DNA of 40,046 bases from a virus: IMG/VR virus record IMGVR_UViG_3300017971_000136, positions 1 through 40,046 of that record; one strand, 5' to 3'. Under the pieces are notes generated by a model. It was given only the letters and a program-made list of their open reading frames with translations. It searched no databases and had not been told where the DNA came from. Positions within the stretch are counted from its first letter, which is position 1; the number at the start of each line of letters is the position of its first letter. The position numbers were made by a program, and so were the translations under genes. Shown piece by piece: positions 23,567 to 40,046 of the stretch.

Positions 23567-24346
23567 TTAGCCCAGGCGCAAGACCTCGATCTGCGTGTCG
23601 ATCTTCGCCGCCTCTTCGCGGGTGAGACTGCCTGCTTTCTGCAGGGACTCCCGCTTCTTCAAGAGTTCGGTGATCGCCGCGTCGTTGTTCTTGGCGCCTT
23701 GGCGTGGGGGTCCACTCGACGTGGAGACCGGAGGGGGAGCTTCCCCGAACCATTTCGGGTGCTTTTCCTTCTGGTCCTCGAACCACTTCTTCTCGTCGAG
23801 GTCTGGGTCCTTCGACTGGGCGGCCTTGAGTTTCTCCTGGACAACATCGGCCAGGTCGGGGTCGATGCCCGCCTGAGTGCAGGCGATCTCCCGGTCGCGT
23901 GCCGCGAGCTTCTCCTCCGCCTCGATGCGCGCCTTCTTCTCGGCGGCCGTCTCCTCGTCCTTCTTGGCGAGGTCGGCCTGGAGGTTCTCAAGTTCCGACC
24001 GCTCCTTCCGGAGCCGCTCCTCCTCGGCTTTCTTGTACTTGGCGAGCTCGGCCTCGGCCGCGTCCGCCCTGGACTTCTCCTCCTGGGCGAGCTTTCCCTT
24101 CCGGTTCCGGTCGGCGAGGATCTCCTTCAGCTTGTCCTTGTCGACGTCGTCTCCGGTGATGCCCGGCTCCTTGGGAGGTTCGGCCGGGGGGGTGGCCGGC
24201 GGAGTTTCGGGAGGGGGGTCGGTCTTGGCCGGTTCCCCTCCGGTGGTCGGATCCTGATACCAGGCGCGCAGGCCCAGTCGAGTCTCCATCAGGTCGTCAC
24301 GCGACCATCTGGGTTTGAGACTGTCAGGCAGTCTTTTGTGGTCCAT
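23567..24346 (-). CDS. Capsid scaffolding protein
   Basis: 259 aa with GGAGG 7 bases before the ATG. A Pro/Thr-rich N-terminal stretch (about 40-62) leads to a long highly charged coiled coil (about 70-155), then a short helical C-terminus rich in Lys. High Glu/Lys helix immediately upstream of the major capsid gene is the usual signature of a scaffold, which guides shell assembly and is then removed. No protease domain is present. Confidence 0.8.
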   Translation of the reverse strand: MDHKRLPDSLKPRWSRDDLMETRLGLRAWYQDPTTGGEPAKTDPPPETPPATPPAEPPKEPGITGDDVDKDKLKEILADRNRKGKLAQEEKSRADAAEAELAKYKKAEEERLRKERSELENLQADLAKKDEETAAEKKARIEAEEKLAARDREIACTQAGIDPDLADVVQEKLKAAQSKDPDLDEKKWFEDQKEKHPKWFGEAPPPVSTSSGPPRQGAKNNDAAITELLKKRESLQKAGSLTREEAAKIDTQIEVLRLG

Positions 24347-24360
24347 CTGATTTCCTCCAT

Positions 24361-24373
24361 GCCGTCAAGCGGC
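24361..24373. promoter_or_regulatory. TCAAG-loop hairpin upstream of the scaffold gene
   Basis: GCCG-TCAAG-CGGC, a 4-bp stem closed on the loop also found in the terminator just upstream and in three hairpins at 31615-31664. It lies immediately before the scaffold ribosome site (GGAGG at about 24356), so on the mRNA it could influence translation. Confidence 0.5.
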
Positions 24374-24380
24374 GTTGGGC

Positions 24381-24420
24381 AAAAAAAAGACCCGTGCAAC
24401 GTCAAGCGTTGCATCGGGTC
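24381..24420 (-). terminator. Intrinsic terminator before the scaffold-capsid genes
   Basis: On the minus strand, GACCCGATGCAACG pairs with CGTTGCACGGGTC (one bulged base) around the loop CTTGA, followed at once by eight T (24388-24381). This is a strong rho-independent terminator placed inside the late gene series, after the 62-aa gene and before the scaffold. No promoter was found between it and the scaffold ATG, so it probably works as an attenuator or is read through by an antitermination factor. Confidence 0.85.
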
Positions 24421-24456
24421 TCGGTTGTTCCGTCGTCCCGCTGGCCTAAGCCGATG

Positions 24457-24645
24457 TCAGATCATATCCGCTGTTTTTCGCGTCTCCTCTAGTCTGACCA
24501 TGCAGGCGTCACCGGCTTGAAATGTAATGGTGTAGTCACCCCACCATCCTTCTCGAAATTTCTGGTGTAGTTCTTCGATGACCTTTTCAAACCGTGCGCG
24601 CTCCTCTTCGAGCCGTCGTGCTACTTTCTTGTTCAATCGTGTCAC
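24457..24645 (-). CDS. Small charged protein
   Basis: 62 aa starting at a GTG (24645) in a GTGA overlap with the upstream stop. Basic helical N-terminal half (KKVARRLEEERARFEKVIEELHQKF), then a short beta-like end (DYTITFQAGDACMVRLEE). Weak ribosome site, so translational coupling is likely. It precedes the terminator. Function unknown. Confidence 0.55.
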   Translation of the reverse strand: MTRLNKKVARRLEEERARFEKVIEELHQKFREGWWGDYTITFQAGDACMVRLEETRKTADMI

Positions 24646-29687: not shown

Positions 29688-31093
29688 TAGAAAGCACTCC
29701 AGGCCTCCGCGGAGAGGCGGTCCTCGGGGTAGAAATACCGGACGTGATAGCGAACCGTGTCGACCGCGTGAGAAAAGATGTCGTCGTGATGCGGCTCCTC
29801 GGGGAGTCGCCCGTCCTTTTCCTCCGGGAAGCTATAACCGGGCATCGCCTTCAAGACGCTGCGCTCCCGGTTCTGCTCCGGGTCACCGTATCCACAACAC
29901 GGATCGGGGTTCTCTTTCAGGTAGTCGGAGAAGTACAGGAAGGGATGACCGACCGACGGCTCGAGGGCAAGCTGGACGTGCTGGACGCCCAGCACCACCC
30001 GCTGACCCGTAAGGTAGACGACCGGGATCCCGAGGTATCGCTCCAGCTGGGCCAGGACCGACTCGCCCCCGGTCTCCTGGAATGCCTTGGAGGCCGGATC
30101 CACCACCGCACAGTCGAGCTTGTAGGGTTCACCGTCCGGACCCTTCCGCTTCTTGATCATCTCGCAGAGCCGCTTGACCGTGATCCCCTTGTATCGTCCG
30201 TCCGGATAGATCTCGTCGATGCAGCAGGAGACCTCCCGCTTTGCCTCCCACCCTCCGGGCATCTTCGCGGCCTTGGGGATCCGCTGGAACCAGGTCACAT
30301 GAGGCCGCCGGCCGGAGGGGTCGATCGAGATGTTGGTCACCGGCCGGGAGTGGGAGCCGTCGATCATCACTACCCAGCGGCCGTTATACCTCCAGGCGAT
30401 GATGTGGCCTTCCCCGTACTCGGCGTAAACCGTCCCGCCCATCGGGACGAACTGGCCGCCCAGGTAGCAAGGCCACATGCTTTTAGGGCAGGCCTTCTTC
30501 AGGTTGCGAACGTAGTCGGGATGGTTGTGTCGGTTCTGCTCGGTCCTCACATGCAGGCATCGGCGCTCGGCGTCGTCCTTCCCCTCGAATTCCTCCGACA
30601 GCCAGCCGATCTTCGGCAGGGACGCCAGGCCGATCCGGATGTCCGACCCCTTCTTCCTGGCCCGGGCGACGATGTGCCGGAAGACCTCCCGCTTCATCAG
30701 GTGCGGCTCGTCGAGATAGACGGAGACCACGTTCGACATCTGGATCGCCCGTGGAATATGGGCCGAGCGGTACAACAGTTTCTTGCCCTCCGGCAGGTAG
30801 ATCACCCGGCGGTCCCGGTTGTGACCGATGATCACGTCCTGGAAAGCCGGGAGTAAAACCTCCTCGAGCCATTCCTTCATCATCGGGTAGGAGGGCAGGA
30901 CGGCGAGGTGATTAGTCCGGGACGGGGCCCGGTAGGCATTGACCGCTATGTACCCCACTCCCGAGGTGGTCTTTCCGGCTCCCCATCCTCCGAACTCGCC
31001 GGTTGCGAACGACTCCGAGAGAGCGAAGTCCCACTGGTAGGGCTGCAGGGCGAGCAGCTGGTCGGGATATTCAGGATTCCGGATCCGCCACAT
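29687..31093 (-). CDS. terL: Terminase large subunit
   Basis: 468 aa from ATG 31093. Walker A GGWGAGKT at 35-42 and Walker B SVYLDE at 124-129 mark the ATPase motor that pumps DNA into the procapsid. The C-terminal RNase H-like nuclease carries CAVVDPASKAF and a late HDDIFSHAVD aspartate pair. The open frame continues upstream, but that extension overlaps terS out of frame and has no start support. It overlaps the 3' end of terS by 23 bases. Confidence 0.9.
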   Translation of the reverse strand: MWRIRNPEYPDQLLALQPYQWDFALSESFATGEFGGWGAGKTTSGVGYIAVNAYRAPSRTNHLAVLPSYPMMKEWLEEVLLPAFQDVIIGHNRDRRVIYLPEGKKLLYRSAHIPRAIQMSNVVSVYLDEPHLMKREVFRHIVARARKKGSDIRIGLASLPKIGWLSEEFEGKDDAERRCLHVRTEQNRHNHPDYVRNLKKACPKSMWPCYLGGQFVPMGGTVYAEYGEGHIIAWRYNGRWVVMIDGSHSRPVTNISIDPSGRRPHVTWFQRIPKAAKMPGGWEAKREVSCCIDEIYPDGRYKGITVKRLCEMIKKRKGPDGEPYKLDCAVVDPASKAFQETGGESVLAQLERYLGIPVVYLTGQRVVLGVQHVQLALEPSVGHPFLYFSDYLKENPDPCCGYGDPEQNRERSVLKAMPGYSFPEEKDGRLPEEPHHDDIFSHAVDTVRYHVRYFYPEDRLSAEAWSAF

Positions 31094-31658
31094 CGAGGCC
31101 GAGTCCCTTCCTGATTTCCTTGAGGCTTGCGCCGGGGTTGATAACAACAGGGCGAATAGAATCATCAGAGCCACCGTCAATACCCATCTCGAGCGGCCCC
31201 TTCTCCTCGTCTCCGTCGTCTGGGATCGCGTTCTTCCCCCACCTTCCCGGGTGCCGGCGCTCGAGCCACCAGGCCGCGGCAAACCAGCTGCGCCGAGCCT
31301 TCGTCCGGATGATGTTGACCATCGCGATCTCTGCATCGGCATCCGCCTTTTTTATACGGTCCAGAAATTCCGGAAACTCGGCGATCCAGTTCTGCAGGGT
31401 CGACAGACTGATCCCGCAGGCATGGGCCGCGGCTTGTCGGGTGTTGCCCTCTGCGATGAGCAAGCAGATCTTGTCCTCAACTTCGGGCGTGCGCTTCGAG
31501 GGTCTTCCGACTTTCCGGGGTGACTTCTTCCGCTTCGGCTTTTTCTTTGTGCTCCGCTTGGGCTTTCGTGTAGCGGGTTTTCTTCGGCGAGCATCTTTTC
31601 TCTTCAACGGCGATCCAGTCAAGCTGGTGTCCGGGGTCAAGCCCCTTTTGGGCGTCAA
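31071..31658 (-). CDS. terS: Terminase small subunit
   Basis: 195 aa if it starts at TTG 31658; no ATG or GTG is usable and the true start may lie a little downstream. Residues about 51-105 (GRPSKRTPEVEDKICLLIAEGNTRQAAAHACGISLSTLQNWI) are a helix-turn-helix typical of DNA-recognising small subunits; the rest is helical for oligomerisation, and the C-terminus (GLGLDVADPES) would contact TerL. The N-terminal 50 residues are Lys/Arg-rich. Its first codons coincide with the TCAAG-loop hairpins at 31615-31664, giving a six-residue repeat LTPKRG/LTPDTS/LTGSPL. Confidence 0.75.
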   Translation of the reverse strand: MTPKRGLTPDTSLTGSPLKRKDARRRKPATRKPKRSTKKKPKRKKSPRKVGRPSKRTPEVEDKICLLIAEGNTRQAAAHACGISLSTLQNWIAEFPEFLDRIKKADADAEIAMVNIIRTKARRSWFAAAWWLERRHPGRWGKNAIPDDGDEEKGPLEMGIDGGSDDSIRPVVINPGASLKEIRKGLGLDVADPES

Positions 31659-31664
31659 GCGCCC
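31615..31664. promoter_or_regulatory. Three TCAAG-loop hairpins at 18-bp period near terS start
   Basis: CCAG-TCAAG-CTGG (31615-31627), GGGG-TCAAG-CCCC (31633-31645) and GGGCG-TCAAG-CGCCC (31650-31664). The loops begin at 31619, 31637 and 31655, exactly 18 bases apart; the stems differ but each is fully paired. They occur at the 5' end of terS, where packaging (cos/pac) sites and late control elements are found. The loop is shared with two hairpins before the scaffold gene. Confidence 0.65.
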
Positions 31665-31688
31665 TGCCTATATTTTCAGGGTCGCACA

Positions 31689-31768
31689 TCAGTAACACGA
31701 TGTCAAGGGTTCGTGTTACTGACTCCCCGTAATTGCAGACCCAGTTCCCACCGTCGACAATTACGGGG
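31689..31768. promoter_or_regulatory. Two long dyads between terS and the integrase gene
   Basis: Dyad 1: TCAGTAACACGA at 31689-31700 and its inverse at 31711-31722 (12-bp arms, 10-base spacer). Dyad 2: CCCCGTAATTG at 31725-31735 and its inverse at 31758-31768 (11-bp arms, 22-base spacer). On the minus strand a perfect TTGACA (31706-31701) falls in the spacer of dyad 1, but no good -10 follows at normal distance. The site may hold late-operon operators, or the packaging recognition site next to terS. Up to 31821 nothing else was found except the integrase ribosome site. Confidence 0.55.
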
Positions 31769-39684: not shown

Positions 39685-39936
39685 TTACAGGTTCGCCTGA
39701 GCTCTACTCTTGCCGGAGGTGCTCGGCGTCCTGGGTGCCTGTCGCGCCTTCTTCTGCTTCCCTTCTTCTCTTCGCTTCCTTCCTCTTGGCTTCTCTCTCT
39801 TGTGCAGCAAATCTCTCGCACTCTCGATGCCGCGCCTCCCTCTCTTCGTCGTATATCGCGGGTAAGTCTCCTTACGCTGCGGGCCGCACTTGGAGCAGAA
39901 GTCGGAGCCATATTCCGCTTCGTACAGTATCGGCAT
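39685..39936 (-). CDS. Small basic early protein
   Basis: 83 aa from ATG 39936, with GGTGAG 7 bases upstream; an in-frame ATG 5 codons earlier would overlap the preceding gene. A CSKC motif (residues 14-17) near the N-terminus, then a strongly basic, probably disordered remainder (KREKPRGRKRREEGKQKKARQAP). It follows the KPGAEKI-motif gene across the circle junction. Possibly a nucleic-acid-binding protein. Confidence 0.55.
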   Translation of the reverse strand: MPILYEAEYGSDFCSKCGPQRKETYPRYTTKRGRRGIESARDLLHKREKPRGRKRREEGKQKKARQAPRTPSTSGKSRAQANL

Positions 39937-40046
39937 TTCATCACTCACCATCCAACGGTAGACCCCGCTGGGGGTCGTAGCGGCTGTCGCCCATCTTGTG
40001 GTCGAGGACGTTCAGGAGCCCTTCGTATTCGTCGATGGTGAGATCC
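39924..40046. repeat. Terminal direct repeat (right copy)
   Basis: Exact copy of 1-123. Bases 39941-40046 therefore repeat the 3' end of the early gene at 18-1199 (minus strand), and 39936 is the duplicate of position 13. Joining the copies restores continuous genes across the ends. Confidence 0.97.

Follow-up and report, generated by a model that had tools for sequence, protein, structure and literature searches.

The locus studied here raises the question of why a phage should carry small hairpins with a common loop and different stems at both of its late control regions, and what could read them. The window, i.e., the whole stretch of DNA analysed, is a virus record of 40,046 bases (phage W) with a 123-bp direct terminal repeat (1-123 / 39924-40046), as expected of a circular, complete-looking assembly. 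The late genes of W are on the minus strand and the integrase gene is on the plus strand. In the late region, terS is the first packaging gene and the scaffold gene is the first capsid gene. The terL product matched Terminase_6N at 0.0011, which is under the curated cut-off, and gave weak tblastn matches to annotated terminases. The portal-position protein (655 aa) had no family match, the major capsid protein (MCP) was of the SU10 type, and one protein weakly matching a head-maturation-protease family, as well as small genes, could also be seen in the late region. Three genes are of particular relevance here:

31071..31607, minus strand: terS, terminase small subunit; phrog_4102 at 2.6e-26, matched by the longer ORF P0003; start codon TTG at 31607, inferred
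23567..24346, minus strand: scaffold gene, head scaffolding protein; ATG at 24346; phrog_2303 at 5.8e-6
24457..24645, minus strand: small conserved ORF P0011, 62 aa; directly upstream of the terminator that precedes the scaffold gene, in W and in both relatives described below

The comparison rests on three distinct phages, namely W and two relatives termed B (L255/L359; L284 was identical to L255 at 99.99% over 12,112 bases) and C (L360). B could be found by using a degenerate DNA pattern of a TerS motif (112 viral stretches) followed by tblastn of the window proteins against 358 loci, and C by an MCP alignment search of viral_contigs, while a strict TerS motif pattern returned nothing. The record of B is incomplete (31,082 bases), and C was examined over 40,000 of its 40,057 bases. 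B has the same gene order as W, with TerL, portal-position protein, and MCP being 46%, 48%, and 67% identical, respectively; C is syntenic, with 64% identity in MCP and 45% in TerL. The terS products of W and B both belong to phrog_4102. The C gene at the terS position (L360:2448-3101) was not detectably similar to the TerS of either W or B and showed only a 0.026 match to another TerS family; given the homologous TerL, portal-position protein, and MCP, the terS of C has likely been replaced.

Protein searches revealed no close relatives via TerL in viral_contigs or genome_contigs, nor via MCP or portal-position protein in viral_contigs. Repeating the MCP alignment with C added gave no further relative in viral_contigs, a search which requires short exact peptides and detects fairly close relatives only. 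Among named phages, TerL and MCP gave only distant relatives (24–31% identity among the matches listed), TerS had three matching records, covering roughly half of the protein, and none matched the portal-position protein; no plasmid matched the MCP. The prophage search by TerL gave weak matches in 1/297 of a Desulfobacterota group and 4/151 of a Chloroflexota group, and none in 14 genomes that contain some of the loci analysed. The corresponding search by MCP alignment in five phylum groups (251, 398, 246, 199, and 188 genomes) gave distant matches in 4/246 only, the phylum groups being named after the record titles of the centre loci. The stretches surrounding the four distant MCP relatives (21–25% identity) contained single hairpins only and no hairpin cluster.

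A total of seven hairpins of the form stem-G[CNUGA]C-stem occur in W, every one on the late-gene sense strand. They are distributed as three directly before terS and four at the beginning of the scaffold gene, the latter consisting of an intrinsic terminator, one hairpin before the ribosome-binding site, and two within the first 20 codons. Loop offsets are given below relative to the start codons; the terS offsets refer to TTG starts, which were inferred by their spacing to hairpin 3 in all three phages.

31650..31664, minus strand: terS-leader hairpin 1, GGGCG[CUUGA]CGCCC; loop at -52; B has a counterpart at -58, and C lacks one
31633..31645, minus strand: terS-leader hairpin 2, GGGG[CUUGA]CCCC; loop at -34; counterparts at -32 (B) and -35 (C)
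31615..31627, minus strand: terS-leader hairpin 3, CCAG[CUUGA]CUGG; loop at -16; counterparts at -14 (B) and -17 (C)
24381..24421, minus strand: intrinsic terminator that precedes the scaffold gene; its inner stem UGCAACG[CUUGA]CGUUGCA is separated from an outer stem by a single bulged A, and 8 U follow; loop at -60; counterparts at -52 (B) and -64 (C)
24361..24373, minus strand: scaffold-leader hairpin 2, GCCG[CUUGA]CGGC; loop at -23, two bases 5' of the Shine-Dalgarno sequence GGAGG (24354-24358); counterparts at -20 (B) and -28 (C)
24318..24334, minus strand: scaffold hairpin 3, AGACUG[CCUGA]CAGUCU; loop at +18 in the coding sequence; also +18 in B and C
24292..24306, minus strand: scaffold hairpin 4, GGUCG[CGUGA]CGACC; loop at +45 in the coding sequence; also +45 in B and C (weak stem in C)

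The sequence-only reading had described three hairpins near the terS start with stems CCAG/CTGG, GGGG/CCCC, and GGGCG/CGCCC and loops exactly 18 bp apart, together with two more hairpins of the same loop before the scaffold gene (24361-24373 and a terminator near 24389-24420). All five exist, and the terS loops at 31619, 31637, and 31655 have the spacing described. The set of five was nevertheless too small for W, since two extra members (24318-24334 and 24292-24306), which differ at the second loop base, could be recognised by comparison with B. An exact invariant loop, TCAAG (CUUGA on the mRNA), likewise proved too narrow a definition, as the family consensus is C-N-U-G-A for W and B, with C-G-A-G-A for C. 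The proposed occurrence at both late control regions was borne out, as the element recurs at terS and at the scaffold gene in W and both relatives.

The layout of B is the same 3 + 4 as in W, and that of C is the same minus the first terS hairpin. The hairpins of B at terS, in gene order, are TCTG[CGTGA]CAGA, GCCG[CTTGA]CGGC, and CCCG[CATGA]CGGG, and those at the scaffold gene are GTAGCG[CATGA]CGCTAC (terminator), TCCG[CATGA]CGGA, GGACTG[CATGA]CGGTCT, and GTCG[CTTGA]CGAC. The loops of C are all CGAGA, in the stems GGCG[..]CGCC and CCAG[..]CTGG at terS (the distal one being absent) and in CATCGG[..]CCGATG (terminator), GGCG[..]CGCC, CGAACTG[..]CGGTTCG, and a weak AGGG[..]CCTG at the scaffold gene; the last of these, at +45, forms only two Watson-Crick pairs plus a wobble. 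A spacing of 18 nt between the last two terS loops is common to all three phages. In the terS hairpin nearest to the start, the likely Shine-Dalgarno bases (CUGGA, CGGGG, and CUGGA in W, B, and C, respectively) lie in or adjoin the 3' arm, those of W being within it, and the end of the second scaffold hairpin precedes the Shine-Dalgarno sequence by 2, 1, and 7 bases in the same order. For C, an alternative start at an upstream ATG (L360:2394) would place both hairpins inside the gene at the terS position. Further, an ATG in the +1 frame could be seen 13, 13, and 16 nt after the inferred terS TTG, at 31594 (W), L255:1541, and L360:2464, which may represent an overlapping frame, a leader peptide, or chance.

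Such a pattern might arise by chance, from codon usage (CTT GAC), or from a decayed tandem repeat. TCAAG alone is found 168 times in the window compared to 63 expected, so that these letters by themselves mean little, and 18 bp corresponds to six codons. A whole-window scan of the stem-loop heptamer, a check proposed beforehand, revealed 14 sites of GTCAAGC/GCTTGAC, five of which had at least four Watson-Crick pairs, all of them CTTGA on the late-gene strand. Taking every G[5 nt]C of the window, such stems were present at 80/4110 sites, a base rate which gives a probability of 4.8e-6 for five or more of 14, a value that ignores the choice of loop; other heptamers in the window gave at most two such hairpins each. 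When 240 other loci were chosen for three GTCAAGC close together (at least 120 stretches each from viral_contigs and genome_contigs), such stems were present at 37/1770 sites among the matches listed, and among these no clustered paired hairpins with different stems occurred, just repeat units with the same or near-same stems.

The consensus heptamers, GCNTGAC for W and B and GCNAGAC for C, were further counted by position. In the leaders (sense strand, -150 to +70 of both starts), 17/20 were flanked by at least four Watson-Crick pairs, compared to 0/80 elsewhere on both strands of the three records (Fisher 1.7e-16, which is not a literal probability, the sites being related by descent and not independent). 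The three exceptions were the +18 hairpins of B and C, in which U-G wobbles are needed for 6–7 pairs, and the weak +45 hairpin of C. Codon usage or chance would not be expected to leave 0/80 of the same heptamers with stems elsewhere, nor to repeat the layout in two relatives with different stems, and the terS frame of B is shut by a stop codon within hairpin 3; we consider this explanation hardly credible. Two narrower ideas were also dropped: that the TTG codons in the terS loops of W are start codons displayed by the loops, in view of the same closed frame in B, and that a codon phase (Leu-Asp every six codons) accounts for the spacing, after the heptamer count.

The proposal that the stems covary around a fixed loop was upheld by the different stems at matching positions in the two relatives. 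Across the 20 aligned sites (18 distinct), double changes were present in 26/72 cells, at three of the four aligned pairs. The covariation value was 0.992 compared to 0.18 for shuffled alignments, and 98.6% of cells were paired, a percentage favoured by construction because the rows were picked by heptamer, position, and mostly stem; the position-based heptamer count (17/20 vs 0/80) is the less biased measure. When a covariance model was built from the 20 sites, 19 of them, which match it by construction, took ranks 1–19 of 29 matches in 111 kb; the scores then dropped from 15.6 to 12.2 bits, with the weak +45 hairpin of C at 11.0 bits. In a scan of 363 loci plus the window (3.13 Mb) for at least three hairpins with identical pentaloops and different stems within 150 nt, the matches were the terS leader in W, the scaffold leaders in B and C, and otherwise only the loci L121 and L256; tetraloop runs were found in eight other loci. 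In the six leader windows, 17/20 pentaloop hairpins with at least four Watson-Crick pairs were members of the family. In 20/20 sites, the loop begins with C and ends in GA (bases 1, 4, and 5), and the flanking G(..)C is invariant; base 2 is free, and base 3 is U in 14/14 loops of W and B and A in 6/6 loops of C. Conservation of an x-D motif in the protein could fix part of the loop in scaffold hairpins 3 and 4, which are within coding sequence. Judged from these comparisons, the family appears to be a conserved RNA element, neither a DNA site nor a codon-usage artefact.

The sites had also been suggested to be packaging signals. DNA sites of the pac or cos type bound by TerS would suit a tandem array adjoining terS, with its 18-bp spacing in W. 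However, the heptamer is conserved and the arms are not, i.e., the arms vary freely yet remain paired, and recognition of duplex DNA requires no pairing. Moreover, all sites lie on the sense strand only, 4/7 are at the scaffold gene including one in a terminator, and the hairpins persist in C despite its dissimilar gene at the terS position. This suggestion is not supported, and we regard it as very improbable.

The hairpin at 24381-24421 of W has the GC-rich stem and the U run by which intrinsic terminators were recognised; B and C have corresponding hairpins followed by 7 U, as judged from sequence and fold, although the pattern scanner missed them. In all three phages, a single bulged purine is present on the 5' side, 6–7 pairs below the loop, between the inner and outer stems (24388-24421 in W, L255:8415-8448, and L360:9122-9153). 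The sequence GGAA(C/G)AACC directly before the terminator is also conserved in all three (24423-24431 in W and matching places in L255 and L360).

In W, B, and C alike, one family member supplies the loop of an intrinsic terminator, which brings transcriptional control into consideration, whereby boxB-like sites would load a phage antiterminator with the terminator before the scaffold gene as its target. The stem of 4–7 bp with a pentaloop matches the size generally known for boxB, and TTGACA is present upstream of the terS cluster in all three phages, as part of a 10-of-12 sigma-70 match in B. The upstream region of the terS cluster in W, however, gave no promoter match. A boxA scan of W gave 34 matches with up to three mismatches vs 38 expected, none of which was on the sense (minus) strand in either leader and one of which was antisense at 31599-31609. 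Furthermore, the loop positions are fixed relative to the start codons even within the scaffold coding sequence, which antitermination does not need. The known boxB elements of lambda, P22, and phi21 are small hairpins whose loop is bound by a phage protein, with pentaloop or hexaloop variants per N peptide, as described in PMC12550061. The present hairpins are similar in being small, in having a putatively bound loop, and in showing loop variants between phages. They differ in that boxB is GNRA-like whereas C-N-U/A-G-A is found in 20/20 loops here, as judged by sequence, and in forming arrays of 2–4 tied to start codons. Taken together, antitermination is unlikely to be the main role of these sites.

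Several other features could be observed between terS and the integrase gene of W. By sequence, the TTGACA precedes the inferred terS start by 99 nt in W, 129 nt in B, and 81 nt in C; in B it belongs to TTGACA-17-TACAGT, and the promoter scan of W revealed none there. On the minus strand of W, it is enclosed by a long inverted repeat at 31688-31723 (CAGTAACACGA, 10 nt, TCGTGTTACTG; 13 pairs in the fold), which may represent the operator of a late promoter or else an attP core. A second hairpin at 31725-31768, with an outer stem of 12 pairs (CCGTAATTG.../...CAATTACGG), adjoins this repeat.

The hairpins could also act as RNA structures without any protein, tuning translation, mRNA stability, or RNase processing by themselves. 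The strength of the terminator hairpin and the location of the likely terS Shine-Dalgarno bases in a stem arm are in line with this. However, folding compared with shuffled sequences showed that the terS leaders are ordinary in predicted stability (z -1.25, -0.27, and +0.65). The scaffold leaders were unusually stable (z -3.1 to -3.9), which is probably owed largely to the terminator. In the predicted minimum folds, 13/20 hairpins were complete (W 7/7, B 3/7, C 3/6), one was partial (B), and six were absent. An action of structure alone would further leave unexplained both the invariant C..GA loop on arbitrary stems and the split of base 3 by phage, and is quite unlikely to account for the family.

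The fixed loop, the free and paired stem, the restriction to one strand, the fixed distance to the start, and the loop letters that differ set by set together argue for an RNA hairpin that is read by a protein. That a protein recognises the loop on the mRNA, as the sequence-only reading had offered, is plausible. The Shine-Dalgarno overlap at terS and proximity at the scaffold gene in all three phages favour a set of translational operators. Thus, with slightly better than even confidence, the hairpins may be regarded as RNA operators in the terS and scaffold mRNA leaders that are read by one trans-acting protein and act on translation. We infer the reading by a protein, the effect on translation, and the repression of both genes from these comparisons. 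Each hairpin would present the pentaloop C-N-U-G-A (C-G-A-G-A in C), with any stem sequence tolerated as long as it is paired, to one trans-acting loop-reading protein, probably made by the phage. When bound to several hairpins at once, the reader would block ribosome entry. At terS, occlusion would come from the last hairpin, which holds the likely Shine-Dalgarno bases, and at the scaffold gene from the one hairpin directly before the Shine-Dalgarno sequence and the two in the first codons. Binding at the first scaffold hairpin, itself a terminator, may also adjust how much transcription reads through into the capsid genes, and the outcome would be co-regulation of the packaging and capsid genes. 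Several observations weigh against this reading: the ordinary predicted stability of the terS leaders and the incomplete minimum folds of B and C, the missing distal terS hairpin and weak +45 stem of C, the small number of phages compared, the position of scaffold hairpins 3 and 4 in coding sequence, the alternative upstream start in C, and the lack of a hairpin cluster in the four distant MCP relatives. In CUUG tetraloops and Smaug-type pentaloops, the first and fourth bases form a C1-G4 pair and base 2 is exposed. By analogy, C1 and G4 of the present loop might pair, leaving base 2 exposed and A5 without a partner, which is a suggestion only.

The tblastn comparison of W open frames with B and C matched nothing to the right of terS (the record of B being incomplete), and a reader that is a shared phage protein would therefore be a product of the late region. 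The most suggestive, still unproven candidate is the 62-aa product of P0011. Its structural model was weak (mean pLDDT 69), and searches of phages (up to E = 1), Pfam, and PHROGs revealed no match to it, nor did the PDB offer a convincing fold; the other small late ORFs had no informative family. TerS would be a less natural reader, because C keeps the hairpins without detectable TerS similarity, yet it is possible because the base 3 change in the loops of C coincides with the change of TerS. In its most specific form, the proposal is that an undescribed phage RNA-binding protein, perhaps the 62-aa product or a head protein, co-represses terminase and scaffold translation and gates the terminator via a C-N-U/A-G-A code, base 3 having changed across the whole set of one lineage together with the reader; we put this forward tentatively and consider it less likely than not as a whole.

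Among known systems, CsrA/RsmA also acts on several leader hairpins that share one loop motif, one of them over the Shine-Dalgarno sequence, and the present leaders are similar in both respects; the loops read by CsrA/RsmA carry GGA, whereas GGA is present in 0/20 loops here. The coat-protein operator of the MS2 type has an ANYA loop with a bulged A near it, both absent here; it is likewise a hairpin at a start site, although a single one, and is used by a structural protein. In P22, scaffold synthesis is regulated by the scaffold protein itself. The term "autogenous" in PMC3741392 refers to Arc and not to scaffold autoregulation. For T4 and RB69, PMC3014915 describes the gene 43 operator as a hairpin in the translation initiation region with the same loop in both phages. 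The T4 operators (gene 43, RegA, and gp32) are similar to the present element in lying in translation initiation regions of dsDNA phage mRNAs, the nearest upstream loops here being at -14 to -17 for terS (inferred start) and -20 to -28 for the scaffold gene in the three phages. They differ in that one upstream hairpin is described for gene 43 there, whereas 2–4 with a common loop motif occur here at two structural genes. The Smaug/Vts1 element CNGG(N) is a stem-loop in translational repression according to PMC9893680, and resembles the present loops in the form C-N-x-G-N on a stem with a free second base. This is an analogy of shape only, as the Smaug/Vts1 system is eukaryotic and requires G at loop position 3, where U (14/14) or A (6/6) is found here. 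An Rfam scan (release 15) gave no family at the gathering threshold over the window and none up to E = 1 in the leaders of W or the scaffold loci of B and C. The phage-associated RNAs named in PMC2864571 (c4 antisense, Lacto-int, manA, and wcaG) were compared via these Rfam scans only. A literature search found no recognisable description of such an element, which is not proof of its absence.

The two natural loop codes, with U or A at base 3, make the specificity of the reader directly testable, and the hairpin and its protein, if the proposal is true, would be a new pair that can serve as an orthogonal tool beside MS2 and boxB. To our knowledge, little has been charted of how tailed DNA phages control their head and packaging genes at the RNA level. 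The present comparison reveals, in a little-known phage clade, what appears to be a compact, repeated, and phylogenetically supported RNA element at two genes of capsid assembly and DNA packaging.
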